Part shown: positions 1,422 through 28,011 of the stretch, piece by piece
How positions within the stretch are numbered: position 1 is the first letter of the stretch
How the letters are laid out: every line of letters starts with the position of its first letter
Source: a virus
Length of the DNA: 28,011 nt
IMG/VR virus record: IMGVR_UViG_3300035698_014019
Span: 1-28,011 of that record
Strand: one strand, 5' to 3'
The notes under the pieces: model-generated
What the model saw: the letters and a program-made list of their open reading frames with translations, nothing else
What the model was told of the DNA's origin: nothing
Databases searched by the model: none
Translations under genes and position numbers: made by a program

Positions 1422-1441
1422 TCCCACACCTCTTTTTTTAA

Positions 1442-1503
1442 AGATAACGATTAAGCTCACCAGCGCCATGCTTTACGGCGTCTGGTGAAGCGCCTTGTTA
1501 TGC
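1442..1503 (-). other. attC-like integron recombination site 3 (strong fold)
   Basis: On the minus strand it reads GCATAACAAGGCGCTTCACC, then the rest of the hairpin, and ends CTTAATCGTTATCT. Arms 1455-1467 and 1477-1491 form a 13-bp stem with exactly two unpaired bases, T1481 and A1488, both on the same arm and six pairs apart. Outside the stem is an unpaired spacer (GATTAA against GCCTT), then ATAAC/GTTAT ends. Extrahelical bases on one arm, an unpaired central spacer and AAC/GTT end boxes are the structural hallmarks by which IntI recognises folded attC. The bulge side gives the same orientation as the genes. No integrase gene lies in the window. Confidence 0.65.
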
Positions 1504-1554
1504 TCATCAATCTCATCACATGCACACGCCACGGCATAAGTAATATCTTCTCCT

Positions 1555-2796: not shown

Positions 2797-2821
2797 TCTT
2801 TTTTTTTGACAACCTCCAATA

Positions 2822-4105
2822 TTAAAAAATTACTTCAGGATATTCTTTTGGTTTGACTTTCAAGTTTGGTTTGAAATAAACTTTTACATTATCTTGTCTT
2901 GCTTTGTTAAGTATTTTTTCTACCCACTCCCATTTTGGTTGCCCTTCATCCATCCCTGAACTCTTGCTCCTTCCTCCGATAATAATCCAGTCAATCATTT
3001 TTAAGGAATTGAAGGTTAACTCTTCTTGTAATGGTTCACACGAAAAGAACTTTACAGGGGCTTTGAATTTTGAAAATATGTTTTCTGCGTCTTTGATTCT
3101 GGACTGAACATCTATGGTCGTTCCAACCCAGGCTGTTTTTGGCCAGTCAATTTTGGTTAATCGCTTTGGATTCTTGGTCAAGAACAGATAATTCCATTGA
3201 GAATTTTCATCACAAACACTTAATATTTCATCAATCCATTCCTGGGGAACCCAGTCCCCAAACAAGTCTGCCATTGAACAAACAAAGGCGTTGTTTATTC
3301 CTGGCTCGTCTTTTCTTGATTCGGGAATCTTTGTACTTTTAGGGGCTGTAAGTCTTTTGGGCCTGAAGGTTGGCTCGAATTTTTCCTTATAGAATCTGTT
3401 GGCAATGTCCCTTGCATAGCAATACTTGCATCCATGTTCGCATCCGGTGACGGGATTCCACGTCCATTTTGCCCATTCTATATTTTCATTTGTTGCATTG
3501 AACTTGCTTTCCTTGTTCAGTTCATCTTCTATTTTCTGTTTCACTTCCTTTGCCAGCTTCCAGACAGCGTCAATGGACAGATCGTCATTCTTAATCCCCT
3601 CGATATCATCCGCATCCGCATATCCCAGGATGGTTCTCATCTTGTTCACGTTTGTGATCCCTGTTCCTATCAGCTTGGCGGTCTTTTCTGCTGAAGGTTT
3701 GTTATCGGTATTTAAATTTAAATACCGATTTTTCTTATAGTCCTCACTCTTATAATCTCCACCATAAGCCCCCACCCTATCCAATGCCTCAAACAATCGG
3801 AACTTGTCGCCAGCCGTCACCCTTCGGCCTTTGTTCTTGTTGCGCTTGATTGAGTATTTAAGAGCGGCATCTTCACCATCAAATTCTAACAGATTAACAG
3901 GAATGTCTTTTAGCTTGACTTCCTTGGCCGCCTCTAACCTTGTATGCCCGTCAATCAGGAACCCTTTTTCTTTCCATATCAGAATAGGTTCATTTTGGTC
4001 GTATCCGTTTTGCCGGATGTCTTCCAGCACCTCTTTGTAATCTTCATCGTAAATTCTAAAAAGGTTTTTAAAAGGGTCTTGAATTTTAATCTTTTTAATG
4101 TCCAT
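2822..4105 (-). CDS. ParB-like domain fused to DUF5131 (Gp37/Gp68) radical SAM-like protein
   Basis: Residues 1 to about 110 are a ParB/sulfiredoxin-fold domain with the LIDGHTRLEAAKE motif (DGHTR). After a helical linker, the second half begins WAKWTWNPVTGCEHGCKYCY, giving C222-x3-C226-x2-C229, the canonical 4Fe-4S ligand pattern of radical SAM enzymes. LFLTKNPKRL and IDWIIIGGRS are typical of the phage Gp37/Gp68 (DUF5131) family. Members are expected to be iron-sulfur enzymes related to spore photoproduct lyase; their substrate is not settled. The start overlaps the end of the tcmP-like gene by 11 bp. ParB domains occur in phage DNA-modification systems, so a nucleic-acid substrate is a reasonable inference, not shown. 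Confidence 0.85.
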   Translation of the reverse strand: MDIKKIKIQDPFKNLFRIYDEDYKEVLEDIRQNGYDQNEPILIWKEKGFLIDGHTRLEAAKEVKLKDIPVNLLEFDGEDAALKYSIKRNKNKGRRVTAGDKFRLFEALDRVGAYGGDYKSEDYKKNRYLNLNTDNKPSAEKTAKLIGTGITNVNKMRTILGYADADDIEGIKNDDLSIDAVWKLAKEVKQKIEDELNKESKFNATNENIEWAKWTWNPVTGCEHGCKYCYARDIANRFYKEKFEPTFRPKRLTAPKSTKIPESRKDEPGINNAFVCSMADLFGDWVPQEWIDEILSVCDENSQWNYLFLTKNPKRLTKIDWPKTAWVGTTIDVQSRIKDAENIFSKFKAPVKFFSCEPLQEELTFNSLKMIDWIIIGGRSKSSGMDEGQPKWEWVEKILNKARQDNVKVYFKPNLKVKPKEYPEVIF

Positions 4106-5195: not shown

Positions 5196-6110
5196 TCAAT
5201 AGTTTAGTAGCTCCTTCCGTAGTTCTTTCGCCTCCTTATTTGGCAAATCGGCAGGATCTCCGAAGTCAGGAGTCAACAGTTCAACATCCTTGCCAAGTCC
5301 ATCAATCAACATGCCAAGCTTGTCTGCCTGTCTTTGTGCCTGATCTTCTGCATCATAAAAAATAAAAACCTTGTCTAATTTCTCAATCATTATCCTGACC
5401 TGACTATTTGTAAATTCAATCCCAAAAGTCCCGACGGTTCCAGGGCCGAATTTCCAAACGTCGAACACTCCCTCTACGACAATGGCAACCCTGTTCCTGA
5501 TTTTGTCAATGCCGTACAAGGTATGTTTGTGGTGAACAATCTCATCCTTTCTTTCACAAGCTTGATATTTTGCAAACTGTTTGTCGGTTATGTCACGACC
5601 CTGAAAACTGACCATTTTCTGATTCAGGAATATCGGGGCGATGATTCTGAACTTGTAATCTCCGACATTTCCTGTCCCTTTGAGTTTCCACTCCTGCTCT
5701 AATTTATCTGGATCAAAGTTCCTTTTTCTAAGATATTTTCTATGAGAAACACTAAGCTGACGACTATCTGGCGGAAAAGACATATCAATGTATGGGTAAG
5801 AGCGAGACAATTGATTCTTGTCTATGTCTCGCTTGTCTAACAGGGTATTTCCATACTTATTTATATAGGTTTTTGCGGCTGGATAGTTGCATTCCAACAA
5901 TCGCATGATAATATCAGGTAAAGACCGCCAACCACATCTCCAACAGTTGTAATATTCTCCTTGAATATTGAAGCCGCCATGCCAACCTTCATGCCCTGTA
6001 CAGAATGGGCACTTGATCTGAACCCATCCTGCTCGGGCATGCTTGCCTCGATCCGTATTCGGAATTCCAAATTGATCAAGAAATTGTTTTGGATCGAATA
6101 TCTTTTCCAT
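5196..6110 (-). CDS. DnaG-type DNA primase (304 aa)
   Basis: The N-terminus carries a zinc-binding domain with C34PFC37 and C56WRC59, between which lie GHEGWHGGF and an aromatic strand. This is the CHC2-type module that senses template sequence. The second half is a TOPRIM catalytic domain: AIVVEGVFDVWKFG holds the invariant Glu, and KVFIFYDAEDQAQRQADKLG the Asp-rich metal site. The family makes RNA primers at the fork. At 304 residues it is shorter than bacterial DnaG and lacks the helicase-binding C-domain, as is common in phage primases. ATG 6110 lies 5 nt past the stop of the upstream gene and has only a weak ribosome binding site, so coupling is likely. Confidence 0.88.
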   Translation of the reverse strand: MEKIFDPKQFLDQFGIPNTDRGKHARAGWVQIKCPFCTGHEGWHGGFNIQGEYYNCWRCGWRSLPDIIMRLLECNYPAAKTYINKYGNTLLDKRDIDKNQLSRSYPYIDMSFPPDSRQLSVSHRKYLRKRNFDPDKLEQEWKLKGTGNVGDYKFRIIAPIFLNQKMVSFQGRDITDKQFAKYQACERKDEIVHHKHTLYGIDKIRNRVAIVVEGVFDVWKFGPGTVGTFGIEFTNSQVRIMIEKLDKVFIFYDAEDQAQRQADKLGMLIDGLGKDVELLTPDFGDPADLPNKEAKELRKELLNY

Positions 6111-6115
6111 TTGTT

Positions 6116-6379
6116 TTACTCGTTAAACTGATCAGCCCAATCTAAAATATCATTCCATGCATATTTTAAAAGTAAATATACTGGCAACACTCCTCTTTTA
6201 TCAAAACCTACTTTTTCTGCCGCTTGATCACTCGCTTCTTCTAAGGATATTGTATAGCAATCCTCGAAGTTTGCAATCTTTGTTGTGTCCTCTAAATCTA
6301 ATTTTTCTGCCTTCTTTAAATCATAGGATTCCTCCTTGATCTTTGCCGCGAGTTTTACTGCTCTTGCCAATAATTCCAT
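6116..6379 (-). CDS. Hypothetical protein (87 aa)
   Basis: ATG 6379 follows AGGAG with 6-nt spacing, so the longer frame from 6460 is rejected. The product is acidic and mostly helical (MELLARAVKLAAKIKEES), with a C-terminus LPVYLLLKYAWNDILDWADQ. No known family. It sits 2 nt after the stop of the preceding gene and 5 nt before the primase start, so it is co-translated with the primase. Confidence 0.65.
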   Translation of the reverse strand: MELLARAVKLAAKIKEESYDLKKAEKLDLEDTTKIANFEDCYTISLEEASDQAAEKVGFDKRGVLPVYLLLKYAWNDILDWADQFNE

Positions 6380-6380
6380 C

Positions 6381-6581
6381 TCATTCTCCTTTTTTTCTTT
6401 TATCTTTTGCGCAATACATAACAATACCAGCCTCAGCATCTCCATTGTTTGGAAGCACAATTCTTGTATTGGTTACGCATTCTTGACATACTTTCAGGCT
6501 TGGCATTTCATGATAATTATATCTCCAAGCGTCTCCTGTACTTGACAATGTCAAAACTATCAAAAATACTATTTCATTCAT
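6381..6581 (-). CDS. Small exported or membrane-anchored Cys protein (66 aa)
   Basis: Start ATG 6581 has AAAGGAG upstream. The first 15 residues, MNEIVFLIVLTLSST, form a short hydrophobic segment consistent with a signal peptide or anchor. The rest has VCQECV and a further Cys (IVMYCAKD), so a disulfide or metal site is possible. No family recognised. Stop and next start are within 5 nt. Confidence 0.6.
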   Translation of the reverse strand: MNEIVFLIVLTLSSTGDAWRYNYHEMPSLKVCQECVTNTRIVLPNNGDAEAGIVMYCAKDKRKKGE

Positions 6582-6583
6582 TT

Positions 6584-6754
6584 TTATTCTCCTTTCTTTA
6601 AAAGTTGGTTTCTCTGTTCGCACCTTATGCATCCGTTGTCCCTTCTTTCTCCCCTGGCAATGCAAGCGTCCAATCTTATTCTTTGCCCATGCTTATCGCA
6701 CCAAAAAATCATGGAATAGATTGTCGGAGGCTTTCTCCTTTTGTAAACTGTCAT
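6584..6754 (-). CDS. Cys-rich microprotein (56 aa), zinc-finger-like
   Basis: ATG 6754 is preceded by GAAAGGAGAAATAA. The 56-residue product is basic, begins MTVYKRRKPPTIYSMIFWCD and has Cys at 19, 32, 42 and 45, the last pair as CIRC. This spacing could bind one zinc. The stop lies just before the ribosome binding site of the next gene. No family recognised. Confidence 0.6.
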   Translation of the reverse strand: MTVYKRRKPPTIYSMIFWCDKHGQRIRLDACIARGERRDNGCIRCEQRNQLLKKGE

Positions 6755-6949
6755 TTATTTCTCCTTTCTTTTGTATTTCTTTTTCGCTTCAAAGTCACCA
6801 TCCCAAGGAATGGTATTTGTTGCTTTTATTACGACTTGAACACAGCTTCCGCAAAGCAATGAATCAACCCCTGCCTGATCATGCTTGTAAACAGTTCCGT
6901 CGTGATGAATTGTTCTTTCTCTCTTGAAACATCTTATGCAGTCTGTCAT
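6755..6949 (-). CDS. Cys-rich microprotein (64 aa), two CxxC pairs
   Basis: The ATG at 6949 follows AAGGAGGGAG. Pairs CIRC near the start and CGSC about 30 residues later make a zinc-ribbon arrangement, with a His-rich stretch between (TIHHDGTVYKHDQ). A Lys-rich tail ends the protein. It abuts the next microprotein gene directly. Its function is unknown; the form suits nucleic-acid or protein binding. Confidence 0.65.
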   Translation of the reverse strand: MTDCIRCFKRERTIHHDGTVYKHDQAGVDSLLCGSCVQVVIKATNTIPWDGDFEAKKKYKRKEK

Positions 6950-6994
6950 TGTTTTTCTCCCTCCTTTCTATTATATAATATATTTACTAATCCC

Positions 6995-7156
6995 TTAAAT
7001 TTTTATTTTCTCCCTCCTTCTGATCTTTCTCAAAATCTGATTGATTGTTTTATGACAGGTCTTGCAAAGATAATCTCCTTCGGATTCCAGTCCCTTGACC
7101 GCTTTCCATAATTCAGGTTTGCATTTGTGACAACTAACAATTGGAATTGTTGACAT
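6995..7156 (-). CDS. Cys-rich microprotein (53 aa), zinc-ribbon-like
   Basis: ATG 7156 follows GAAAGGAG. The sequence has SCHKCKPELW and, 20 residues on, YLCKTCHKTINQILRKIRRR: two CxxC knuckles followed by a basic helix, a plausible nucleic-acid-binding zinc ribbon. No named family. Confidence 0.6.
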   Translation of the reverse strand: MSTIPIVSCHKCKPELWKAVKGLESEGDYLCKTCHKTINQILRKIRRREKIKI

Positions 7157-7176
7157 AATTTTTTCTCCTTTCTGTT

Positions 7177-7374
7177 TTAAATTTCTGTAATTTTGTCATT
7201 GGTAGCTTTTTTTATTTCACTTAAAAAATATTTATTTGTACCTTTATTTAATCCCCTTATACTCTCAACTGCCACAATCATATCTCCACAATGTGGCGTA
7301 TCCCCTATCCAACTAACCCTAACCTTTTTATTTGTATAAGGCTCTTTTACAATTTGTCCAACTGTAATCTCCAT
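7177..7374 (-). CDS. Small hypothetical protein (65 aa), SH3-like barrel possible
   Basis: ATG 7374 is preceded by GAAAGGAG. Alternating hydrophobic strands (VGQIVKEPYTNKKVRVSWIG, then DMIVAVESIRG) suggest a small beta-barrel. No family assigned. It lies between the SNF2-like helicase gene and the zinc microproteins. Confidence 0.6.
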   Translation of the reverse strand: MEITVGQIVKEPYTNKKVRVSWIGDTPHCGDMIVAVESIRGLNKGTNKYFLSEIKKATNDKITEI

Positions 7375-7389
7375 TTCCTAACTCCTTTC

Positions 7390-9360
7390 TTATTTATTTA
7401 GCATTCTGTTCAAGAGTTCGGACAACAAAGACGAACCCTCAACCGCCTTGCCGTCAAGAACCTTTTCCAACACCTTTCGCTTCTTGTCAATCAACTCCGC
7501 GATCTCCTCTTCTATTGTATCATGGGCAATCAAATAGTATGCATTGACTGAATCCGCTTCCTGTCCTATTCTGTGAACTCTATCCTCTGCTTGATCATGC
7601 TCACCAGGCTGCCAGCCCAATTCCACAAAGCAAGTTGAACTGGCAGCAGTCAGAGTTATTCCAATTCCAGCCGCCTTGATATTTCCCACGAACAATTTGA
7701 TCTTGTTATTTGTTTGAAACTGGTCAACCGCTTCCTGTTTGGCCTTTTGATTGTTCCTGCCATCAAGTCTTACGGAAATTCCCTTGAACTCATCCATTAA
7801 GATATCGACCGTTTTATGATGAGTACAAAAGACAACCAGCTTCTCACCTGATTCGATAAAGTTCTGAATCCAGGAAATAATGCCATTCATCTTGCCCGCA
7901 ATGGTCAATTGTTTAAGGCCTTCGATCTCTGCCAAAGTCGATGCTTGTGCAGCACTTGCGGCCTTCTCATTTCCAAACTCCTTTCTGACCCAAGAAATGA
8001 AATCGACTTCTGCCTTATCGTATTCCTTTTTGTTATCGATCTCCAAAGGAATGACGATTCTAACCTTGGCGGGGAGATCTTTCATTACTTCTGACTTCTT
8101 GCGCCTGATCATTATTGACTTTGTGACTATTTCATGAAGCTTTTCAATATTGGATGCCCCTGAAAAATCCCACCCAAATCCATTGTGTTTGGCCCCACAA
8201 TATTCATGTGCGTACTTCCAGAAAGAAGGAAATCGCTCTGGCATGATCATGTTGAGACAATTGAAGAACTCAATTGGTCTGTTGACAATCGGCGTCCCTG
8301 ACAAAGCAATGATATTTTTTGTTCTTCTTGCCAAAGATCGTACTGCCTTGGTTCTCTGGGCTTTGTTGTTCTTTGTAAAGTGAACCTCGTCCATCACCAC
8401 TGTCTTATATTTAATAGATAACAGTTCCTTCTTTCTTGCGCTGACAATATCATAATTGATAATGGTAATGTCTGTAAGTCCTGCTCCGCCATTCGACTTG
8501 CCTGATAGGATCTGAACCGATAGATCAGGACACCACATCTTGCATTCCCTTTCCCAATTTAATTTGATTGAGGCGGGGACAATAACAAGTGCTGGCAAAG
8601 AAGTTTCCTTGTTAAGTTGTATCCATGCAAGGGCCTGTGCGGTCTTGCCTAATCCCATCTCATCCCCAATCAATGCCCTGCCCTTTCTGCTCTCTACGAA
8701 CTCAACGCCTCTTGTCTGAAACGGATACAAATTCATTCCCAAACCAGGAATATTGACAATCTTCTTTTCATCCTCATACTGCATTTTGTCATACCATTCT
8801 TGTAATTCAGAAGAAATGTCAAACTTCCATTCCCTTAATGCCTCAAAACTGTCAAGAGCAAGTGGACAAGTCCAAGGCTTGTCGTCAAGTTCGGGATTCC
8901 ATTTTCTGCCTGTCAATGTCTTGACATGACCTAAAGTTTCTCTGAACCTTGAATCGCCTCTTGGGAACTGAAATTTGATCAGGATTTTATTGTCAAGTAA
9001 CCCCGTCCATTTCAAAGTCTCGATCTCTTTTTTATCTACTGCTGCTTTTTTAATGGGCAAGGATTCAATATCAAGATGCTCCAGCTGTCCGCTATATTTC
9101 TCGATCTTTCTGCGGGCAAAGTCAATCTGTTTGGATGTTAAGAGTCCTCTCTTATTATAGAAGTCTGCAATATCGGAAAGGACTCCTGCATCATGTGAAT
9201 TAAACCCTCTGCCATTCTTATAATGAGTGTGTTTCATCATCTGCTCGTCCGCTTCCTGCTCTCTGTAAAGGGCTTGAAGCGCGCCGACTACAAACTTGTC
9301 GTCTTTGAGGCGTTCTGTTATGTCCGGTCGCTCGCTTTGGGCTTTATCGGATGTTTTCAT
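7390..9360 (-). CDS. SNF2-family DNA translocase/helicase with HARP-like N-terminal region (656 aa)
   Basis: Helicase motifs appear in order. LIGDEMGLGKTAQAL is motif I, VMDEVH is the DExH box, ALSGTPIVNRPIEFFN is motif III, and GWQPGEHDQAEDRVHRIGQ is motif VI with its arginine finger. These define the SWI2/SNF2 branch of SF2. The region before the ATPase (RGDSRFRETLGHVKTLTGRKWN to the next WT/W positions) resembles the HARP domain of SMARCAL1-like annealing helicases. ATP-driven movement on DNA is expected, plausibly for fork remodelling. I prefer ATG 9360, after a GGGGGAAAA site 13 nt past the preceding stop; an upstream ATG 9405 overlaps that gene. Confidence 0.9.
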   Translation of the reverse strand: MKTSDKAQSERPDITERLKDDKFVVGALQALYREQEADEQMMKHTHYKNGRGFNSHDAGVLSDIADFYNKRGLLTSKQIDFARRKIEKYSGQLEHLDIESLPIKKAAVDKKEIETLKWTGLLDNKILIKFQFPRGDSRFRETLGHVKTLTGRKWNPELDDKPWTCPLALDSFEALREWKFDISSELQEWYDKMQYEDEKKIVNIPGLGMNLYPFQTRGVEFVESRKGRALIGDEMGLGKTAQALAWIQLNKETSLPALVIVPASIKLNWERECKMWCPDLSVQILSGKSNGGAGLTDITIINYDIVSARKKELLSIKYKTVVMDEVHFTKNNKAQRTKAVRSLARRTKNIIALSGTPIVNRPIEFFNCLNMIMPERFPSFWKYAHEYCGAKHNGFGWDFSGASNIEKLHEIVTKSIMIRRKKSEVMKDLPAKVRIVIPLEIDNKKEYDKAEVDFISWVRKEFGNEKAASAAQASTLAEIEGLKQLTIAGKMNGIISWIQNFIESGEKLVVFCTHHKTVDILMDEFKGISVRLDGRNNQKAKQEAVDQFQTNNKIKLFVGNIKAAGIGITLTAASSTCFVELGWQPGEHDQAEDRVHRIGQEADSVNAYYLIAHDTIEEEIAELIDKKRKVLEKVLDGKAVEGSSLLSELLNRMLNK

Positions 9361-9374
9361 TTTTCCCCCTTTTT

Positions 9375-9773
9375 TTATTCCTTTCTTTGAACTCTTACTA
9401 TCCATGTTATTGCCTCTTCCAATGTAACATATCTTTTGATCACATAGAATTTATGTTGTTCCCCAACAAAAACCTTATTATAACAACTGTCTAAAAAATA
9501 CCAAGCGTCATCAATTTTAGCTTGAGCTTGGCAATGTTTATATTTTTTATCCACTATCTTTCCGAGAGCGATACGAATTTCATATCCATTTCTTCTTGCG
9601 GTCATTGCCTGGAAAACAGCCCTTGGTACACAACTTGCTGTCCATTTGACAGTAGTCGCATCATACCAAAGACTTTTCTGGTGAGCACATCCAGAGGAAA
9701 AATAAAAAATAAAAATCAGCACTAATATTCCACAACAAACAAGAATAACATTAAGGCATTTTTTTCTTATCAT
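9375..9773 (-). CDS. Lipoprotein with transglutaminase-like catalytic triad (132 aa)
   Basis: The N-terminus is a lipoprotein signal: basic start, hydrophobic core LVCCGILVLIFIFYF, then lipobox SSGC with Cys29. The mature part has TASC48VPRAVFQAMTARRNGYEIRIALGK, H80 in KHCQAQAK and D95 in AWYFLDS. This Cys-His-Asp order and spacing match transglutaminase-like (papain-fold) proteins, where Cys heads a helix and His and Asp lie on adjacent strands. An envelope-anchored enzyme made early could act in superinfection exclusion or host envelope remodelling, but that is inference. It is followed closely by the SNF2 gene. Confidence 0.65.
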   Translation of the reverse strand: MIRKKCLNVILVCCGILVLIFIFYFSSGCAHQKSLWYDATTVKWTASCVPRAVFQAMTARRNGYEIRIALGKIVDKKYKHCQAQAKIDDAWYFLDSCYNKVFVGEQHKFYVIKRYVTLEEAITWIVRVQRKE

Positions 9774-9785
9774 TTTTATTCCCCT

Positions 9786-10160
9786 TTACTCCGTCAGCTC
9801 TTTCAAGCCGGATTTTATTTCTTTGAATGTTTCCTGAATTGTTTGAAAAGGCCAATTCTTCTGACGCCTGAGATATTTCATTAAACTTTCACGACTGATT
9901 CCCCTGCCTGATTCTAATCCAATTTCCATAAGTTCTGTTGGGGAATCAAATACCAATTTGACCACGGCCTTTGCTTCGATCGAAAACGAAAAAAGCATTT
10001 CCTTGAACATAAAATGCCTTTCCGGAGTATTCATCACTTCTAAATTATCCGCTACAATGATTTTTCCGTCCTGCTCATAATAGTTCAACCCTTTTCTTTC
10101 CACGTCAATTTCAAATGCTTTTTCCTTATTGCTATACTTTCTCCTCTTGTACTTTCCCAT
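9786..10160 (-). CDS. Hypothetical protein (124 aa)
   Basis: Start ATG 10160 follows AAAGGGG. The N-terminus is basic (MGKYKRRKYSNKEKA), the middle forms strands (GKIIVADNLEVMN), and the C-terminal third is helical (TELMEIGLESGRGISRESLM, then LRRQKNWPFQTIQETFKEI), perhaps a helix-turn-helix. No family recognised. The start lies within the end of the preceding gene, so the two are coupled. Confidence 0.6.
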   Translation of the reverse strand: MGKYKRRKYSNKEKAFEIDVERKGLNYYEQDGKIIVADNLEVMNTPERHFMFKEMLFSFSIEAKAVVKLVFDSPTELMEIGLESGRGISRESLMKYLRRQKNWPFQTIQETFKEIKSGLKELTE

Positions 10161-12481: not shown

Positions 12482-12805
12482 TCAAATTCCTCCTATTCCA
12501 CTTTTTTTATTATTAGGCCTACATATAATTTGACACATTTTATTTTGAGACTGTTGATCAAATGGCGGAAGTTCCTGATCTCCCCAATTATATAGGCTAT
12601 CCATTGCTGAGTCAAAACTTTTAATATCGGTAACATTACTAAAAGCCTTAACAACAACACTCAATAAATCTTTCTCTCCTTCAGAAACCGGCAATGCTTC
12701 AAGTTTTTTAGCTATTATTTCAGCTAATTTAGATGAAGAAATTTTTTGTCTCTCTGCCTTTTTCCACCCCTCTTTAATATCAATTTCATATTTCCAGTTT
12801 GCCAT
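12482..12805 (-). CDS. Duplicated 107-aa protein, copy 2
   Basis: This copy is nearly identical to the product of 15842-16165: same length, over 85% identical residues by eye, with identical C-terminal half NWGDQELPPFDQQSQ through KSGIGG. The N-terminus NWKYEIDIKEGWKKAERQ is shared. Two Cys (CQIIC) near the end may bind metal. ATG 12805 follows GAGGAGGG. No family recognised. The copies flank the AAA+ ATPase gene and the genes between it and DUF1257. Confidence 0.75.
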   Translation of the reverse strand: MANWKYEIDIKEGWKKAERQKISSSKLAEIIAKKLEALPVSEGEKDLLSVVVKAFSNVTDIKSFDSAMDSLYNWGDQELPPFDQQSQNKMCQIICRPNNKKSGIGGI

Positions 12806-15841: not shown

Positions 15842-16165
15842 TTAGTTTCCTCCTATTCCACTTTTTTTATTATTAGGTCTGCATATAATCTGACACATTT
15901 TATTTTGAGACTGTTGATCAAATGGAGGGAGTTCCTGATCTCCCCAATTATATAAGCTATCCATTGCTGAGTCAAAACTTTCAATGTCGGTAACCTCATT
16001 AAAAGCCTTAACAACAACACTCAATAAATCTTTCTCTTCTTCAGAAACCGGTAATGCTTCAAGTTTTTTAGCAAGTATGGTTGCTAATTCAAATGAAGAG
16101 ATTTTTTGTCTCTCTGCCTTTTTCCACCCCTCTTTAATATCAATTTTATATTTCCAGTTTGACAT
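15842..16165 (-). CDS. Duplicated 107-aa protein, copy 1
   Basis: Same length as copy 2 (12482-12805) when started at ATG 16165, which has GGAGGG 7 nt upstream; a tandem ATG sits at 16168. Nucleotide identity in the 3' half is about 95% by eye, including the stop context, with changes mostly at scattered positions. The shared core KAERQKISS, LPVSE-EKDLLSVVVKAF and MDSLYNWGDQ suggests a small helical protein. Located between DUF2997 and DUF1257 genes. Confidence 0.75.
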   Translation of the reverse strand: MSNWKYKIDIKEGWKKAERQKISSFELATILAKKLEALPVSEEEKDLLSVVVKAFNEVTDIESFDSAMDSLYNWGDQELPPFDQQSQNKMCQIICRPNNKKSGIGGN

Positions 16166-16182
16166 CATCTTACCCTCCTTTC

Positions 16183-16401
16183 TTATCCACAAAGTTTGGC
16201 GCCATCGACTCCCATCCTCGCTTCTCTTTTCAAAGAAGCGTGATTGGTCAGATACCATTCTGTCTTCTTTTTAGTATCCGTCACCTTGCCCAATGCCTCT
16301 TCCATGAATGCGCTGGCCTGCTGGCATACCGGGCCTTTAAAGCCATCCCCTGAAACTCTGGCCTCTCCGTCAGGGCCAACATCTACAAATAGCTTTGGCA
16401 T
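16183..16401 (-). CDS. DUF2997-like protein (72 aa)
   Basis: The sequence PKLFVDVGPDGEARVSGDGF with KGPVCQQASAFMEEALGKVT matches the short DUF2997 pattern: two beta strands with GPDG, then a GxxC helix and EALG. Residues 48-72 form an extra tail containing a Cys. ATG 16401 has AAGAAAGGAG. It is the first clear gene after the regulatory region, heading the DUF2997-DUF1257-Ycf46 operon. Confidence 0.72.
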   Translation of the reverse strand: MPKLFVDVGPDGEARVSGDGFKGPVCQQASAFMEEALGKVTDTKKKTEWYLTNHASLKREARMGVDGAKLCG

Positions 16402-19626: not shown

Positions 19627-19968
19627 TTACACCTCTCTCAATTTAACAGATCCTTTCCAATAATCTCTTTCTCTATTAATAAATCTAAGTTCGTCATCCA
19701 TAAATCGAACTGTATAAGTTGTCCCTGAAGGATGTCCCCAATCGAAACTTGCTCCTCCTCCTGTAACTGTTGTCTCAAAAAAAGTTCTTAATGTACTATG
19801 ATCTGCATCTGATAATGATCTCCATCTCAAAGTAAACCTTTTCTTTGCAAGCGTAAATTGCGGTCTTGTTTGAATATAGCCCGCTTCTTTAGGCGAACGA
19901 ATTGCAGGCATGATGCTTGCCTCTTCTATGCTTTCATACAACTTAGATATGGACGGCCAATCTGCCAT
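19627..19968 (-). CDS. Small phage tail protein (113 aa)
   Basis: The sequence KKRFTLRWRSLSDADHSTLR, FFETTVTGGGASFDWGHPSG and then TYTVRFMDDELRF...VKLREV follows a pattern seen in lambdoid minor tail proteins: a beta-rich domain with F-W-HP and a closing strand ending L-REV. It lies directly after the tail-tip gene. ATG 19968 follows AAGGAG. Which tail position it occupies is not clear. Confidence 0.55.
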   Translation of the reverse strand: MADWPSISKLYESIEEASIMPAIRSPKEAGYIQTRPQFTLAKKRFTLRWRSLSDADHSTLRTFFETTVTGGGASFDWGHPSGTTYTVRFMDDELRFINRERDYWKGSVKLREV

Positions 19969-19980: not shown

Positions 19981-22900
19981 TTATATAGGTGTGTTGCCCT
20001 GATCGAAATCGTCATGGTAATAAATATCCTCGTCATATTCCAAAAGCCCGAGCTTGAAAGTCGTGTCAACCGTCCTGCTCAAATTCAGCATCCTGTATTT
20101 CAAAGGCTCCCCGGTTGACTTGCCAATGGCGAAAACGTCATATTCGGCCAGACCGGAAAGCGAGTGAATACGAAGATCGGATATCTCAGCGGACATGGCA
20201 TTGCCACTGCCTGTATTATAACTCTGCACTCCATATAAATATCTAAAATCCGTTTTTGCAGTCTGTAAAGTTAGACTTAATGTATCGAGAAGATTTGATC
20301 TTGCAGAATCAGAATAAATAAGACAATAAATTGTTCCATATGTCCCAACACTTTCGTCTCTTTTCATTATTAAATAATAAATGGTATTAAGGGAACAAAC
20401 ATAATCATCTGCCGTCGAGCCTCCAGGATCTATTTCGTATAATCGAATTTTATAAGCTCCTCCAGCATCACGATACAAATATAAAAACTCCATATCCGGA
20501 CCAGCAACATCACCGATATGATTACAAAAACTACAGACAGCAATCCTACAATTAAGATCAGAAGCGGTTATCTTAACAGTCACCTGGATTTCATAATTCC
20601 CATTAAAATAATCAACACCAAAGTCATAGTAAATATAAGCATCCTCATTTTGAGTAAGTCCATTAACAGTAATTTTATTTGTAATTACAGCAAATCTGGC
20701 ATTAGGATCAACCTCGGTATAATCAGTATAATCTTCTCTCTTGACTTCCACCGTGTCCGTGGCCGATGCCTCGGCCTCCAGATATCGTTCAACCAGGGTA
20801 TCGTTTGCTTTTTGCAGCCATAGTTTGTAATTGTCAGAGGCGGCCAACGGGCCAACTTCCTGGTCCAGTACAATCGTAAAGCTGTCGGAGCTTCCCTGGT
20901 CAGCCAGGAGGCCGCCCCAGGATACCTTGTCACTGGAATGCTCGACTATGCACATGTCGCCCAGCTCGGTGGCGATGGCGTTTACATCCTCCTCAAAAGA
21001 CGCGGCTCGATTGAGCATCTCATTCATCTGCATACGAAATATGCCAAATCTTGTCGCCACATCCTGATCTGTGCAACCCCATAGCTTCAAGGTTTCTATT
21101 TGCGGAACTCGTGTCAGACTGTCATAGTCGGAACTGAGTATCGGTATCTTATCCTGTACGTAATTCAGCTTTCTTGCATTGTTGAATTCAATGTTCAACA
21201 CATCCGGCACGGAATTACGGTCAATAAATTCCAGCTTGAAGGTGTCCTTGAAATGAGTACCTGACGAGTACACATGGCTATGGGTATCCTCCGGCTTTTC
21301 ATACACCACATTCACATATCTACCATTCCTGATTATTTTGCCTCTGCCGATCTGCTCAAACTTCTGGAGCGCCGTGGTGACAGCCATCGAGCTGTCCAGG
21401 ACGCCATTGCATGACACTCGTGTATGACCGATGGACAGGTTGGATATCTCACAGGCCCCTGTTATCCCAGCTCCATTATTACTACTTTGAACGCCATATA
21501 AATAACGGAAGTCTTTTTTGTTGGTATGAAGGGTTAAGATTAAGGTATCTAAAAGAGTATTCCTTGTTGAATCGAAATACACATAACAATATAATGTACC
21601 GTAAGTACCTACTGATTCGTCTCTCTTGACGGTTAAGTAATAGGTGGTGCCGACTACAACATGGCTGTACCAATTAGTATATTCCGTTCCGCCATCAAGT
21701 TCTTTAAGGCCAAGATGATAATCTGCTCCGTTCCTGTAAAAAAGCAAATGTAACTCATCTCCGTTGGCAGCTTCAATTCCTTTTACATCATCTATAAGAT
21801 TGGCCGTCCCCCAAATAACGAAAGCCATCTGATCGTCTATTGCCGTTACTTTAACGGCAACCTGATGCTCAAAGTCACTATCAAAATAATCCGGGCCAAA
21901 GTCCCTGTAAATGTATGCGTCTTCATTCCTGGTTAATCCGGTGACGGTTATCTTCTTTTCTATGACTGTGAATCGGGCATTCGGGTCGGTCTCGACATAT
22001 TTTGTGAACTTTTCATCCGCATAGGTAGTTCCGTCATTATTGTCCGCCCATGCCTGCCAGTTCGCCTCGTTGATCAGTTCGGTTGTGCCGACTATAGGCA
22101 GTTTCTGGCATCCGTACCTGTCATGGGTTATTAGATCGTAAGAACCCCAGGCAGAATTGGAGGATTCGACCTCCTTTACAAATTCCAGGTTGGTTATATC
22201 ACAGGAGCAGGTAACACCGGAGGCGTTGTTCCAGGACTGCACCGCGTACAGATATCTAAGATCCTTTTTCGACGTGTGCAGTGTCAGCGTCAGGGTGTCA
22301 AAAAGGGCTGACCTGGCTTCATCACTGTAAATATAACAATACAGCGTGCCATATGTGCCGACCGCCTCATCCCGCTTGATGGTCAGATAATATTTAGTAT
22401 TCAGCGCCCCGGTGTAGCTGTCGCTGTAGAGCGTGCCAGCGTCCAGCTCGTAGAGCATAATCTTATAGGCCGCGCCGGTCCGGTTTAGCACCACTGCCAG
22501 CTCGTCTCCTGAGGCGGTATCTATACCATTGAAATCATCAACCAGGTTTGCCAGGCCGAACACGATTGTATTATCGCCGTCCGCCATAGCGGAAAACTCT
22601 ATCTCCATGTACGCCAAAAAATCCCCATCAAAGCAGTCTTGTCCCATATCCTTGTAAATATAGGCATCTTCATTTTGGGTGAGCCCTGTAACCTCAATTC
22701 GATAATCCAGGACGGAAGTAAATCGGCCATTCGGGTCCACCTTGGTGTAGTCCGTGAAATCACGATGGGCCGGAAACCAGTCAGGCACGGCAATAGTGCC
22801 GCGATCCCAGAGGGCAGTAATATTAGGGGTTGTACTATTTAACTGCTCAGACGCCTGAATAGAAATTGCAAGGAGGGAAAGGCCGGGATATTTTAATTCC

Positions 22901-24981
22901 TCAGCCAAAATCTCATCAAAACCTGTCCAATAAAAAGCACTTACATATTTGGTATCGTAGTCGATATCGCTAACCCTGACAATTTGCACGTCATAGTTAT
23001 CTTTATCGACATCTATAGGAAACTGCCTGCGAACAGGCACTCTTTGTGCAGTAGTTATTACCTCATGGTGATGCAGGTCTGTCGCGGCTGCTGCGGCGGT
23101 TGCAATATTATTAACAACCGTGGTGTTGTTATTAAAGGTTTCGCTTGCGCTGAATGTACCGACAACATCTTTTAAAACCATAGTTCCGACTGCCGTACCT
23201 GCCCCCCATGTCCCACTTGTAACTTCACAACTTACATAAGTTCCTATGGCCCCACTTGTGTTTCCCTCTATCTCGTCGGCCACAGAAGGCTCAGCCGAGC
23301 CAGAGGTAAAAGAAAATGTACCCTGCCTTAATATCCAGGTAGAAGCTCCTCTAACTTTATAATTAACTTCAATATTGCAGTCCCGATCAATTAATTTTCC
23401 AGTGCCGTCCACCTCATATAATCCACCAGGAAATTCGATATGAGGAATCAGCTTTTCGGCTTTTCCTTTTGTTTCAACTGTAAAACCCCAATCTTTTGAA
23501 TATGGTTCTGTTGGTACATCAAAACTTTCTGTATGTAGAGCTTTTCCTTTAATTACAACAATATCATCCAGATAAGCATTGCACCCATTCATCCCGGAAT
23601 AAGCAACTGTTGTTCCAAATGTCATTGGACGAGCAAAACTAAGAAATGTGTGTGTTAACCACTCCTTTGATTGTTGTAAAATACCATTAAGGAAAATATA
23701 ATACCAATTTCCTTGGCGGGTAAGCTCTATATGATTCCATGCTCCATTAGTAAGAGCTGAATTTGTCCAAATAAGATATTGATAACCACCACCATTCACA
23801 TATTCCCACCACATAGTGTTGCCCCAGGTGAGAGTGAGAGCAAACCATCTGGTATTGTCAATTCTTTTTCCCCAAACAACCTGATTCGTAGCCCATAGGA
23901 TAGGATAATAAAAAAATCTAACTGTAAAATCCGATTCCGAGAAGTCGTTAAAGTCGGCGTCGGCCACGGACAATTGATCGCCAACGTTATCAAAGTGCAT
24001 AGATCCCGCGCCAAACTTCTTCGTAACAACATCTTGTATAACACCGGTGTTGGTAACTGTCTGAGTTAATGGACTGGTATCCACAAAGGCAAAGGCATCT
24101 CCATCCAGAACAAGCACCTCTTGATCCTCAATCTTTGCCGATACCGACTGATATTGATGCAATTGATCAAAGTTACCAATGGAAACGGTATCTTGATCCA
24201 GCCCACCTTTTGTAGTCTCAAATTCATATTCCTTAATATCACTGAGCCTAATCCTATTATCTACCCAGATATCGTCTACCGACTCAACAGGGGTTTTACA
24301 AATACCCTCCGACATTACGATAAGCATTTTGACGGTCTGGTAATCCTCAACATTGTTTGTCTCAATCCAATGATTTATTATCTGCCCCGCTACCAGATAT
24401 TTTCCATACAATACAGGATATGGCCTGCCTGTTTGCCAGGAGTTCTGAGCGCCGCCTTTCCATCCGTATGTTGGGGATTCCGAATCTGCGCCACCTCCAC
24501 CTAATCCCCCCCCACCAAGCATAGGAGCGCCCGCCATTTCGGGCGTAGGCAAAAGGGAATTTACTAAAATCATTCCCCCCATCACACCAAGGCCCCCCAT
24601 AACCGCAGATATGCCAATGCCCATACCAAAGAAGGAAATGCCTGCTGTAGCTAAAGCGCCACCAGTTAGTACCCCAGCAAGAATCACAGTAGCAATCATT
24701 GCAACAGCACTAAAGGTGTTTTTGCCGCCATCACCTCCACCTCCAGGATCGTGAATTTTAGCCACAACAGCAATGGAATCGCCAGGAAAAAGTTCAGTAT
24801 TAAAATGCCTACATTCTCTGCCATTTACAATAACTGTAAACATGGAAATCATATCTAACGGTATCCGATGCATCTCCAAAACATCTGTTACAGTTATTCC
24901 ACTACAATAAGGAATCAGTGTTTTTTCACTTTGCCTATAAAACGGATTCGTGATCTTTGTTATTTGCAGGTTATTATCCAC
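19981..24981 (-). CDS. Tail-tip central protein, I-like N-terminus fused to J-like host-specificity protein (1666 aa)
   Basis: Residues 1-80 form a ubiquitin/MoaD-like domain (FTVIVNGREC, LFPGDSIAVVAKIHDPGGGG). Next come a hydrophobic Ala/Gly region (about 85-150) and a Gly-rich linker, as in tail assembly protein I. From about 170 the J-type core begins (GRPYPVLYGKYLVAGQII), and later parts such as WGSYDLITHDRYGCQ and VPDVLNIEFNNARKLNYV are J signatures. Inserted in the core are a LamG-like domain (about 295-500: SMHFDNVGDQLSVAD, WNHIELTRQGNWYYIFLNG), another beta-rich insert, and three copies of a domain of about 190 residues. J proteins form the tail tip and contact the host receptor. The protein stops soon after the core (GNTPI), with no long fibre-like C-terminus. 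Confidence 0.85.
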   Translation of the reverse strand: MDNNLQITKITNPFYRQSEKTLIPYCSGITVTDVLEMHRIPLDMISMFTVIVNGRECRHFNTELFPGDSIAVVAKIHDPGGGGDGGKNTFSAVAMIATVILAGVLTGGALATAGISFFGMGIGISAVMGGLGVMGGMILVNSLLPTPEMAGAPMLGGGGLGGGGADSESPTYGWKGGAQNSWQTGRPYPVLYGKYLVAGQIINHWIETNNVEDYQTVKMLIVMSEGICKTPVESVDDIWVDNRIRLSDIKEYEFETTKGGLDQDTVSIGNFDQLHQYQSVSAKIEDQEVLVLDGDAFAFVDTSPLTQTVTNTGVIQDVVTKKFGAGSMHFDNVGDQLSVADADFNDFSESDFTVRFFYYPILWATNQVVWGKRIDNTRWFALTLTWGNTMWWEYVNGGGYQYLIWTNSALTNGAWNHIELTRQGNWYYIFLNGILQQSKEWLTHTFLSFARPMTFGTTVAYSGMNGCNAYLDDIVVIKGKALHTESFDVPTEPYSKDWGFTVETKGKAEKLIPHIEFPGGLYEVDGTGKLIDRDCNIEVNYKVRGASTWILRQGTFSFTSGSAEPSVADEIEGNTSGAIGTYVSCEVTSGTWGAGTAVGTMVLKDVVGTFSASETFNNNTTVVNNIATAAAAATDLHHHEVITTAQRVPVRRQFPIDVDKDNYDVQIVRVSDIDYDTKYVSAFYWTGFDEILAEELKYPGLSLLAISIQASEQLNSTTPNITALWDRGTIAVPDWFPAHRDFTDYTKVDPNGRFTSVLDYRIEVTGLTQNEDAYIYKDMGQDCFDGDFLAYMEIEFSAMADGDNTIVFGLANLVDDFNGIDTASGDELAVVLNRTGAAYKIMLYELDAGTLYSDSYTGALNTKYYLTIKRDEAVGTYGTLYCYIYSDEARSALFDTLTLTLHTSKKDLRYLYAVQSWNNASGVTCSCDITNLEFVKEVESSNSAWGSYDLITHDRYGCQKLPIVGTTELINEANWQAWADNNDGTTYADEKFTKYVETDPNARFTVIEKKITVTGLTRNEDAYIYRDFGPDYFDSDFEHQVAVKVTAIDDQMAFVIWGTANLIDDVKGIEAANGDELHLLFYRNGADYHLGLKELDGGTEYTNWYSHVVVGTTYYLTVKRDESVGTYGTLYCYVYFDSTRNTLLDTLILTLHTNKKDFRYLYGVQSSNNGAGITGACEISNLSIGHTRVSCNGVLDSSMAVTTALQKFEQIGRGKIIRNGRYVNVVYEKPEDTHSHVYSSGTHFKDTFKLEFIDRNSVPDVLNIEFNNARKLNYVQDKIPILSSDYDSLTRVPQIETLKLWGCTDQDVATRFGIFRMQMNEMLNRAASFEEDVNAIATELGDMCIVEHSSDKVSWGGLLADQGSSDSFTIVLDQEVGPLAASDNYKLWLQKANDTLVERYLEAEASATDTVEVKREDYTDYTEVDPNARFAVITNKITVNGLTQNEDAYIYYDFGVDYFNGNYEIQVTVKITASDLNCRIAVCSFCNHIGDVAGPDMEFLYLYRDAGGAYKIRLYEIDPGGSTADDYVCSLNTIYYLIMKRDESVGTYGTIYCLIYSDSARSNLLDTLSLTLQTAKTDFRYLYGVQSYNTGSGNAMSAEISDLRIHSLSGLAEYDVFAIGKSTGEPLKYRMLNLSRTVDTTFKLGLLEYDEDIYYHDDFDQGNTPI
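20167..20730 (-). repeat. Dispersed tail domain, copy C (in J-like protein)
   Basis: 188 residues from YTDYTEVDPNARF to ISDLRI. Landmarks shared with all copies: TDPNARF-type start, GLTQNEDAYIYYDFG, YYLIMKRDESVGTYG, LDTLSLTL and FRYLYGVQS. Probably a concanavalin-like beta-sandwich. Confidence 0.85.
21430..22008 (-). repeat. Dispersed tail domain, copy B (in J-like protein)
   Basis: 193 residues from FTKYVETDPNARF to ISNLSI, with GLTRNEDAYIYRDFG, YYLTVKRDESVGTYG and FRYLYGVQS. It is inserted between the segment DNNDGTTYADEK and the J-core segment CNGVLDSSMAVTT. Confidence 0.85.
22180..22758 (-). repeat. Dispersed tail domain, copy A (in J-like protein)
   Basis: 193 residues from FTDYTKVDPNGRF to ITNLEF, with GLTQNEDAYIYKDMG, YYLTIKRDEAVGTYG and LRYLYAVQS. 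It lies just before the J-core motif WGSYDLITHDRYG. It has the same length as copy B. Confidence 0.85.
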
Positions 24982-25381
24982 TTACATTTCCTTTATAAAT
25001 ATAGTAACCCATCACCCTTTTTCTCCATGCGGGCGAGGATATATGATCGACTTTCACTCCGGTTGCTGATCTTGTATGAATGAAACTATCTCCGCCGATC
25101 GCAACACCAACATGGGACGCCCAACCGGGAACAGAGTAAGACAATACAATCAGGCAACCCTGTTTTATTTTCTTAATCGGTTCCCATTCAGGTTCTGCCT
25201 TATAAATGGCATCATGAATATTTTTCGTATCATTGCAGGATATTCCATTTCCATAGTCAGGGATGATAGTTCCGGCCCTTCTCATGACTTCCATCATCAA
25301 ACCGGAACAATCATAATCGTCCGGCCCTCTCCCGCCATCCTTGAACGGCTTATGAATAAGATCGTTGACAGGAATCGGCAT
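24974..25381 (-). CDS. NlpC/P60 tail peptidase (lambda K-like, 135 aa)
   Basis: DDYDC25SGLMMEVMRRAG carries the catalytic Cys, WASH90VGVAIGGDSFIH102 the His residues, all in NlpC/P60 order. In lambda-type tails this domain belongs to tail assembly protein K, thought to help local cell-wall cleavage during DNA entry. This version lacks the N-terminal JAB-type domain of lambda K. It overlaps the start of the J-like gene by 8 bp. Confidence 0.88.
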   Translation of the reverse strand: MPIPVNDLIHKPFKDGGRGPDDYDCSGLMMEVMRRAGTIIPDYGNGISCNDTKNIHDAIYKAEPEWEPIKKIKQGCLIVLSYSVPGWASHVGVAIGGDSFIHTRSATGVKVDHISSPAWRKRVMGYYIYKGNVSG

Positions 25382-25386
25382 AATTA

Positions 25387-25674
25387 TTACTCCGGTATTT
25401 TAGGTTCTTCAACAGGTTCAGTCAGAATGTCGTTGTCCCATTTCTCAAAATTTGCCTCGAACTTGATAAGTTCTTCATCCGTTTCTTCCAAAACTCTAAT
25501 CAGGGAACTACGCAAGACTTCCTGAGATAAGACAAGAACAAAATCTTTCCCTTGCGCCGGATTCAAAGGAGATAATTTTATTTGAGGCGTTTCTAATAGC
25601 CTTTCAAGATCCTTTTTAAACGAAGAATACTTATCATAGTTTGTGCAATAACTTTGTACTCTCTTTTTTTTCAT
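25387..25674 (-). CDS. Hypothetical protein in tail-tip operon (95 aa)
   Basis: ATG 25674 follows GGAGGG at good spacing; an upstream ATG 25698 overlaps the L-like gene. The product is helical and acidic at the end (LEETDEELIKFEANFEKWDN, EPVEEPKIPE). Its place between L- and K-like genes suggests a tail chaperone or small tail component. No family recognised. Confidence 0.55.
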   Translation of the reverse strand: MKKKRVQSYCTNYDKYSSFKKDLERLLETPQIKLSPLNPAQGKDFVLVLSQEVLRSSLIRVLEETDEELIKFEANFEKWDNDILTEPVEEPKIPE

Positions 25675-25684
25675 CTCTTCCCTC

Positions 25685-26929
25685 CTATGTACTTGCATAT
25701 ATCACAGCCGGATCATCCTCATTAAAACTCCCGCCGGGAATAGCAGGACAAGCTCCAAAATTAGCTTCGTTACTCCGTGCGATACAATCGTCCATAGTCC
25801 TGTTGCACTCGGTTTCCGAACCTGTATATCCGCATTCTCGACTCTTGAAATCATGCCGGCAAGATACCCTTGAAAAAGTATCCTTCGGAAAACGATTTGT
25901 AAAAAACGAATCCGGTATCAGTTCAAATGCCCCCCAAATATTGTCAAAGCTGACTTTGCCGACATCGAACCTTTCTTCGAGTACAGCATCTGTCAAAGTT
26001 AGATCGCCGTTATAGACGACCCTGATAATAACCTCCGAGCCGTACCCCCCATCGGCATCATTAATATAAGATTCCACTTGCCGGAGGACGTTAGCGACCC
26101 TGGCCTGCAAGGTCTGTATCGAGCCGTCCGAGGCCTGCTTCGACTCTGCCAGATCATAAGGAAACTTCTGCCAGCGGTTGTATATCTCTAAGTCGGATAT
26201 TTCGGCAGACATAGCTGCCGCATTGGCATCGTTAAATGATTGTGCTCCATATAGATACCGGAAGTTTTTTTTCGAGGTGTGGAGCGTAAGCGTCAGGGTA
26301 TCCAGGAGGATCTTACGGGCCGCGTCCGAGTAGATATAACAGTAAAGCGTGCCGTAATCCGTATCATCCGTCTCATCCCGTACAAATCGCAGATAATAGG
26401 TAGTATCGACAGAACAAACATAAACATCGGTATAAACCGTGCCACCATCAAGTTCATATAGATGAATATAATATACTCCTCCAACATTAGAAATCCTAAT
26501 ACTTAGAGCATCACCATTAGCAGTATCAATACCCTTAAAATCATTGACAAGATTTGTAAGTGAATCCAAAAATAAATATCCCCAAGCATCTGCCGCTGTA
26601 ATCTTCACGGTTGTCCATATCTCATAGCTGCCATCAAAGTATGTATTACCCACGCCAAAGTCATAATAGACATAGGCATCTTCATTACGGGTCAGGCCAT
26701 TGACCGTGATTTTATCCGCTATGACAGTGAATCGGGCGTTCGGGTCTGTCTCGGTGTAATCGGTGAGATCCTGCACCTCTTCAGGCCAGGAAATATCCTC
26801 TGTGTTTCGTACCAGCTTCAAGGGTTCATCCAGGGCGGGAACATCAATTTCCAGGAGAGGAAGCCAGGGCTCGTTGTCGAAGAGCTTGTTTTTTGCATTG
26901 GCTATTGAAGCTGCAAGTGTTAATGCCAT
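25685..26929 (-). CDS. Minor tail protein L homologue carrying an inserted domain (414 aa)
   Basis: ATG 26929 shares its A with the tape-measure TAA (TAATG). The N-terminus (LTLAASIANAKNKLFDNEPW, LLEIDVPALDEPLKLVRNTE) and the part from WQKFPYDLAESKQASDG onward are L-like. Five Cys near the C-terminus (SCRHDFKSRECGY, ECNRTMDDC, FGACPA) correspond to the iron-sulfur ligands of lambda L. Between ISWPE and WQKFPYDL, where L proteins normally have a short turn, a 195-residue domain of the J-gene repeat family is inserted. L joins the tape measure end to the tail tip. Confidence 0.82.
   Translation of the reverse strand: MALTLAASIANAKNKLFDNEPWLPLLEIDVPALDEPLKLVRNTEDISWPEEVQDLTDYTETDPNARFTVIADKITVNGLTRNEDAYVYYDFGVGNTYFDGSYEIWTTVKITAADAWGYLFLDSLTNLVNDFKGIDTANGDALSIRISNVGGVYYIHLYELDGGTVYTDVYVCSVDTTYYLRFVRDETDDTDYGTLYCYIYSDAARKILLDTLTLTLHTSKKNFRYLYGAQSFNDANAAAMSAEISDLEIYNRWQKFPYDLAESKQASDGSIQTLQARVANVLRQVESYINDADGGYGSEVIIRVVYNGDLTLTDAVLEERFDVGKVSFDNIWGAFELIPDSFFTNRFPKDTFSRVSCRHDFKSRECGYTGSETECNRTMDDCIARSNEANFGACPAIPGGSFNEDDPAVIYAST
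26183..26767 (-). repeat. Dispersed tail domain, copy D (in L-like protein)
   Basis: 195 residues from LTDYTETDPNARF to ISDLEI, with GLTRNEDAYVYYDFG, YYLRFVRDETDDTDYG, LDTLTLTLHTSKK and FRYLYGAQS. It is clearly homologous to copies A-C in the J-like protein. Confidence 0.85.
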
Positions 26930-28011
26930 TATGATCTCATGCCCCACATGGCCTGTCCCACGTCCGTGTTTCTATTTATGCTATCCACCACAACATCTAA
27001 TACCATTTGCCGTCCGTCAAACCGTGGCTGGCCCTGTTGTTCAGCGCTAAGATCCTGTCCGCTTTGATTGATCATATTGACGGTTACGCTTGGAGCCGTT
27101 GTTTTAGTTGATCCTTCTGTTCCTATTCCCCATTCTCCGCTCGCCATTTTTCTAACAGGTAAATGAACTTCCGGGCCACGTTCACCGACCAAAGCATATT
27201 CCGGCTTAGTTGATACTCCGCCATAACCATATGATGGAGGTTCCGCCGCTCTAATTGCTTGTACCTGAGCCATTCCAGAGGCAACAGCGGCAGCCGCTGC
27301 GGCCACCCCAAGAGCAGGACCAACATATGGAATGTCAGCCATTGCACTATACGCTTTCTGCGCACTACTATAAGTCGCAATTATTGTTTCTGCTATTTTA
27401 ATTGATTTGTAAACACCAAACGCTTGTTTGCTATATTTTCCTCCCATCTGAGCAACATTTAAAAATCCTTGAGACATCATACTAAAAGCTTGTTGTATCA
27501 TATCCACTTTTGACTGAAATTCTTTTTGATCGATCTTCCTAATTTCTTTGGCGGTCCATTGGGCTATTGCGATTTTTTGTTTCGCTGTTGCCTGTCCGGA
27601 ACTTAACAACTCTTGTGCGTGACTTTGAATCGCCATTTTCTCCTTATCAAACTGGGACATTGTCAAGGTTGAATATTGCTCGTCAAATGTTTCCTTCAAT
27701 AATTTTTGATCTTCATTATATTTAGTTATTCCAGCTAATGTTTTTTGAAGACCTGCTTCAACTTCTTTTTCCAAGTTCTCCAAAGCAACGTCTCCGGCAT
27801 ATATGCCTTGTTCCTCTAATTGTTTTCGCTTATCAAGAAAAGCCAAATAACCTGCTGTTCTTCTATCCCAGGATGCTTTTTCTGCTTGTTCAAGCTGTTG
27901 TGTAAAACTTATCCATCGATCAAGTTCCTTTTGTTGGGCTTTTTCTTTGTCGTCACCACCTGGAGGAACTTTTCCCTTATCTTTCTTATCTCTCTTAAAA
28001 AGATCAGGAGC
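26929..28011 (-). CDS. Tail tape measure protein, C-terminal part (cut by window edge)
   Basis: The frame is open to the right edge (360 residues visible). It has long charged helices (KAQQKELDRWISFTQQLEQA), then a region with YSSAQKAYSAMADIPYVGPA, an Ala-rich helix and MAQVQAIRAAEPPSYGYGG. The end, with EYALVGERGPEVHLPVRKM and GRQMVLDVVVDSINRN, is typical of tape measure C-termini in siphoviruses. The protein sets tail length and leaves the tail at infection. The start is outside the window. Confidence 0.85.
   Translation of the reverse strand, partial: APDLFKRDKKDKGKVPPGGDDKEKAQQKELDRWISFTQQLEQAEKASWDRRTAGYLAFLDKRKQLEEQGIYAGDVALENLEKEVEAGLQKTLAGITKYNEDQKLLKETFDEQYSTLTMSQFDKEKMAIQSHAQELLSSGQATAKQKIAIAQWTAKEIRKIDQKEFQSKVDMIQQAFSMMSQGFLNVAQMGGKYSKQAFGVYKSIKIAETIIATYSSAQKAYSAMADIPYVGPALGVAAAAAAVASGMAQVQAIRAAEPPSYGYGGVSTKPEYALVGERGPEVHLPVRKMASGEWGIGTEGSTKTTAPSVTVNMINQSGQDLSAEQQGQPRFDGRQMVLDVVVDSINRNTDVGQAMWGMRS

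Follow-up and report, generated by a model that had tools for sequence, protein, structure and literature searches.

The stretch of DNA analysed here (28,011 bases from an uncultivated virus, record IMGVR_UViG_3300035698_014019 of IMG/VR, hereafter the window) carries one domain four times inside two putative proteins of a phage tail tip, and this raises the question of how the copies came to interrupt these proteins and what they would do at the tip. The answer depends on the identity of the host proteins, on the state of the same sites in relatives, on the fold of the domain and on what has become of the receptor-binding fibre in this lineage.

The genes concerned lie on the minus strand and follow, from position 28011 down to 19981, the order tape measure end, L, an extra 103-aa ORF, a K-like gene and J (Table 1). 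Judged from their sequences, the two proteins that carry the domain are lambda-type tail-tip hub proteins, homologues of gpJ and gpL. Once its inserts are set aside, the J core aligns with J of lambda and of four other phages at 18–22% identity. The FNIII-A_GpJ profile scores 24.7 bits with the window J, just below the cut-off, and 41.5 bits, above it, with J of the closest relative, an 89-kb phage (IMGVR_UViG_3300033153_009650, hereafter the sister). The L-like protein also matches PHROG_396 and keeps the four Fe-S cysteines of the C-terminal domain in an alignment with lambda gpL, hairong and the sister, and the sister L reaches 37.1 bits with Phage_tail_L against a cut-off of 25.

Table 1. 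Features of the tail-tip genes, with positions in the window.
Feature	Position	Strand	Remarks
L-like hub protein	25685..26947	-	C-terminal cysteines of Fe-S type; the ATG at 26929 is the likely start; PHROG_18 1.4e-11
Lectin-fold domain (predicted), copy L	26183..26770	-	Within HDI-type N-terminal part of the L-like protein; HMM E 2.2e-68; empty site in L homologues; AF2 model pLDDT 96.2
NlpC/P60 (gpK-like) gene between L and J	24974..25381	-	PF00877 E 4.6e-16
J-like tail-tip hub protein	19981..24981	-	1666 aa; gpI-like N-terminus, then HDII/FNIII-A/HDIII/HDIV-type core; PHROG_31 E 5e-52
Laminin_G_3 domain in J FNIII-A region	23494..24117	-	PF13385 E 1e-8, above cut-off; homologous inserts at matching site in the sister, L115, L116, L117
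Small ~80-aa module in J FNIII-A region	23086..23325	-	Gap in core alignment; sister J carries the same module
Lectin-fold domain (predicted), copy J1	22180..22761	-	J aa 741-934; at about lambda gpJ 257-266; HMM E 6.6e-69; flanks aligned; ortholog in sister phage
Lectin-fold domain (predicted), copy J2	21430..22011	-	J aa 991-1184; at about lambda gpJ 313-322; HMM E 1.8e-71; flanks aligned
Lectin-fold domain (predicted), copy J3	20167..20733	-	J aa 1417-1605; at about lambda gpJ 539-551, region of extra beta-sandwich of HDIV; HMM E 6.7e-69; flanks aligned

In the structure of the lambda tip, FNIII-A (gpJ residues 72–215) lies in the HDII-insertion, an extra beta-sandwich (residues 483–569) lies in HDIV, and gpL has an Fe-S domain (PMC10721106). 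The window shares this hub architecture, and its J insertion points map near gpJ residues 97, 145, 257–266, 313–322 and 539–551, the first two being within FNIII-A and the last within the extra beta-sandwich of HDIV. In lambda, however, the inserts are Ig-like and J continues into FNIII-1/2 and the receptor-binding fibre, whereas the window J stops after the hub and lacks both the C-terminal FNIII-1/2 and the central fibre; the homology of the hub stands although the fibre is lacking. The two inserts of the FNIII-A region belong to other families. One is a Laminin_G_3 domain (J aa 335–477) that passes the curated Pfam cut-off, and the other is a small module (EGNTSGAIGTYV...WGAGTAVGTMVL...GTFSASETF) that resembles, by eye, two stretches of a tail protein of another locus (L007, ORF 5878–9921) and on that ground seems to be a separate mobile phage module. 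An earlier, sequence-only reading of this DNA had passed over both, as well as the end of J after the hub, the window-specific nature of the L insertion and the restriction of demonstrable orthology to J1. After J there is a 113-aa gene (19627–19968) with a PHROG_384 match and a weak DUF2460 match, and the sister has an ORF of 115 aa in the corresponding position. The window gene possibly encodes a gpM-like protein outside the lambda gene order.

The four copies are 194 (J1), 194 (J2), 189 (J3) and 196 (L) residues long and share 51–60% amino-acid identity in pairwise comparisons, with phmmer E-values (1e-55 to 1e-69) that exclude a chance likeness. The sequence-only reading had been right about a domain of some 190 residues present three times in J and once in L, and the size it gave (188–195 residues) was about right, though its exact lengths differ from those measured. 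It had also held that the copies are not very recent, and in fact four of the six pairs match at the saturation expectation at fourfold sites, with a weak leftover similarity in J1–L (z 2.4) and J2–L (z 1.3). Its suggestion that the inserts allow recombination between copies fared differently: no identical stretch exceeds 15 nt, synonymous positions are close to saturation and the test for gene conversion that it had proposed detected no tract, so that recent exchange between the copies is not supported and gene conversion was rejected. An assembly artefact was also considered as the source of the copies and rejected, given a DNA identity of 55–59% and no long identical stretch. That this level of protein identity has been kept at near-saturated synonymous sites indicates that selection maintains the function of the copies. 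Within the domain, the first 50 positions and the second half are highly conserved and the middle third (residues 53–125) is poorly conserved, with an identity of 38% compared with 64–65% in the outer parts.

The insertion itself is observed in relatives that have an empty site. A scan of IMG/VR with the L core yielded 39 homologous loci with 32 distinct L proteins, and all 32 are without the insert and have contiguous flanks, the L insert being present only in the window. The sister L, which is about 60% identical to the window L (71% in the core before the site and 57% after it), has ...NTEDIVWDSETWTAFPFEL... at the empty site, where the window has ...NTEDISWPEEV, the domain and NRWQKFPYDL..., and its sequence across the site of the window insert is ...DIVWDSETWTAFPFEL.... 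The motifs ISWPE and WQKFPYDL, described in the sequence-only reading as normal neighbours, are indeed contiguous in the L homologues, the sister included, and the J core is contiguous in other J proteins, which bears out the view that the inserts interrupt the core of both hosts. Nor was the same domain seen at the same place in most siphoviruses: tblastn with two queries did not match it in 50,697 annotated phage records, and the L homologues lack it.

The sister was detected only through the C-terminal motif of the domain, single-sequence searches of IMG/VR with the window J and L cores having found no relatives. Copies of the domain occupy all three sites of its J protein, one at J1, a tandem pair at J2 and one at J3. 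The J1 copy is broken by a further nested domain of about 100 aa and is split across contig ends (aa 1–50 of ORF 3–3278 in locus L055, and the end of L112), and a near relative of the sister (L115) has the beginning of this nested insertion at the end of its J. Pfam gave no match for the nested domain, which resembles, by eye only, CBM4/9-type phage modules.

The histories of the individual sites are read from trees. Window J1 and sister J1 appear as orthologues with a support of 96/97, and J1 is the only site for which orthology with the sister can be demonstrated. The copy in window L and window J3 form a group (94/91 to 100/92), and the pairing of window J3 with sister J3 is weakly rejected (AU p 0.035). 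In a first tree the four window copies were monophyletic; this grouping was lost once the sister was added, and a tree including the sister in which the four are held together is not rejected (AU p 0.13). The simplest reading would be that J sites already carried the domain when the window and the sister split, and that a J3-like copy, the probable source of the L copy, was then placed into L in the window lineage. In the tree of J itself, a clade with a support of 100 unites the window and the sister with L116 and L117, and all four have mutually related inserts at the LamG site; L116 has no copy of the repeated domain, and in L117 the J3 site holds a tandem pair.

The fold was approached by prediction. 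An AlphaFold2 model of one copy, run on an alignment of 41 domain members, has a pLDDT of 96.2 and a pTM of 0.92. Compared with the PDB by Foldseek, this model finds legume lectins at the top (E 2e-6) and, at rank 37, CBM2 of the evolved Dit of phage J-1 (5ly8), and VIA-align gives, among the matches listed, Z values of 13–14.4 over 151–179 residues to thrombospondin, ERGIC-53, GH16 and CBM66. On the basis of the model confidence and these two sets of matches, the repeated domain is predicted to be a concanavalin-A-like (legume-lectin-type) jelly roll, which agrees with its earlier description as a single beta-rich domain. Whether the folds differ among the copies was addressed with the one modelled copy, and the remaining copies, at 51–60% identity, align over their full length. 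In a model of the whole L protein, built from alignment rows of the domain only, the domain is a confident unit (pLDDT mostly >90) and the L core is poor (mean pLDDT 67). A PDB sequence search with the four copies gave no relevant match, Pfam gave no Laminin_G_3 match on any of them and PHROGs had no assignment of their own; sister copy J2b scores 16.1 bits with Laminin_G_3 (PF13385), under the cut-off of 27.6, and by the curated cut-off the repeated domain is not a member of that family. Concanavalin-A-like folds serve structural and enzymatic roles too, and a ligand does not follow from the fold by itself.

The domain is found in many proteins of other uncultivated phages. Two IMG/VR scans yielded 36 and 63 loci, together at least 83 distinct ORFs, in which it makes up most of a short ORF (14), is N-terminal (42), C-terminal (7) or internal (12), or is present in several copies (8); a limited motif scan of GTDB genome contigs did not match it. 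Where PHROGs can name a neighbour or a host protein, it is a tail protein, a fibre, a spike or a structural protein of the virion. A single copy is present in most of the first 36 records, a set in which the four of the window are the highest number. The sister record, which came to light later, gave five domain matches, and two of these represent the halves of a single copy. Tandem arrays within one ORF were seen in L071 (4423–7449, four copies), L011 (610–7917, three) and L092 (4456–8922, at least two). With at least 83 ORFs and no Pfam or PHROG model, this phage family of the lectin fold is open to direct glycan-binding tests.

As regards the fibre, J extends 5–8 residues beyond the hub in the three complete members of the clade (the window, with 8, the sister and L116), compared with 545 in lambda and 200 to 1,541 in most J homologues. 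Neither the region downstream of J in the window nor the next stretch of the sister revealed a recognisable fibre gene; one 604-aa ORF of the sister weakly matches a tail protein. The window is a 28-kb fragment, and a separate fibre gene could lie outside it. Two J proteins outside the clade (L136, 1279–3999, and L146, 860–3568) end 6 residues past the hub and have no lectin match; loss of the J fibre therefore does not require lectins, and the link between the two is suggestive only.

It is likely that the copies are glycan-binding jelly-roll decorations in loops of the hub, copied between sites, and that they are the main adsorption device of this phage or a large part of it. In this view, in-frame insertion would have placed the domain in three J loops and one L loop, and it would have moved between sites within the lineage, as the window-only L copy, presumably derived from a J3-like copy, suggests. 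At the stoichiometry of lambda, which we infer to be three J and three L per tip, about 12 lectin-fold domains and three LamG domains would stand out from each hub and bind host-surface glycans multivalently, and a conserved scaffold with a variable central third (residues 53–125) would fit copies with differing specificities. Carbohydrate binding is suggested by the predicted fold and by precedent in other phages, and the main-adsorption role by the end of J without a C-terminal fibre and without a fibre gene after it; the internal modules may substitute for the central fibre. The sequence-only reading had proposed projecting decorations that bind carbohydrates or receptors, and the lectin/CBM fold fits this proposal, of which the projection and the binding are what we infer.

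A bolder extension, possible rather than probable, is that the clade swapped its central receptor-binding fibre for lectin domains gained stepwise, namely LamG, then the copies at J1, J2 and J3 (tandem and nested), and lastly the copy in L. If so, the task of receptor binding would have passed from a single tip fibre to a multivalent collar made by the hub. Whether or not this extension holds, the empty and intermediate states in relatives are a readable series in which a conserved injection machine gains binding modules in its core and keeps its shape, and which may also show how a tail tip does without a fibre.

An unlikely alternative to glycan-binding decorations is that the domains are structural, bracing or shielding the hub as decoration- or plug-like parts, and were multiplied because the loops tolerate insertion. 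The variation of insert sites among relatives, where copies come and go (none in L116, two at J3 in L117), and the two hub-only J proteins without a lectin match agree with it, but the domain also stands alone or N-terminally in many unrelated virion proteins (14 short and 42 N-terminal ORFs among the 83), which means that it does not depend on the hub, and its predicted fold is that of lectins and CBMs. It is very improbable that the domains are enzymes, that is, glucanase- or lyase-like depolymerases with the fold common to GH16 and PL7: the VIA-align matches do include GH16 (VvEG16) and PL7 alginate lyases at Z 13–14, but GH16-type E.D.E/E.D..E motifs occur in only five of the 41 members, at differing positions, an R.E.R-type PL7 pattern in none of them, and the best conserved residues are in the first 50 positions and the second half, the middle being variable. 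Least credible of all is a selfish in-frame element spreading in virion genes whatever the function, for which the many unrelated carriers, the four sites and the lineage-specific gain in L could speak, but the copies showed neither an accompanying mobility gene nor a conserved terminal DNA repeat, the nameable hosts and neighbours are tail or virion structural proteins, and the protein identity kept despite near-saturated synonymous sites points to selection for function.

Carbohydrate-binding inserts in tail tips are already known, and what is new here is an unusually extreme case with empty sites in relatives. The evolved Dit of Lactobacillus phage J-1 contains two inserted CBMs, one of which has been shown to bind the host surface (PMC9124777). 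The window resembles it in that lectin/CBM-type domains are inserted in a tail-tip protein, and the structure of its CBM2 is among the Foldseek matches; however, the J-1 host protein is Dit with two different CBMs, whereas the window has one family at four sites of J and L, plus LamG. The system would thus work like an evolved Dit without being one, its hosts being putative J and L homologues. In roseophage R4C, a J-type megatron has a carbohydrate-binding domain (residues 482–629) placed inside another domain, an arrangement like that of the window, and a hub protein has an oligosaccharide-binding domain (PMC10276861); unlike the window, R4C shows a CBM11-like topology and one insertion, has no repeat across two proteins, and has fibres. 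The lactococcal 936 phages have CBMs on the neck, the tail tube and Dit, described as interchangeable bricks (PMC6669499). The window, as far as its genes suggest, would also place several carbohydrate-binding-type modules on one virion, but in the 936 phages different modules are on different virion parts, whereas here a single duplicated family is in the hub loops.

Elsewhere in the window, two copies of a small gene on the minus strand (12482–12805 and 15842–16258), about 3.4 kb apart, are 92% identical over 333 nt. A gene at 2822–4105 has a ParB-like N-terminus, recognised by eye, and a DUF5131 domain (PF07505), and a perfect 26-bp palindrome, ATCGGTATTTAAATTTAAATACCGAT, lies inside it at 3704–3729.
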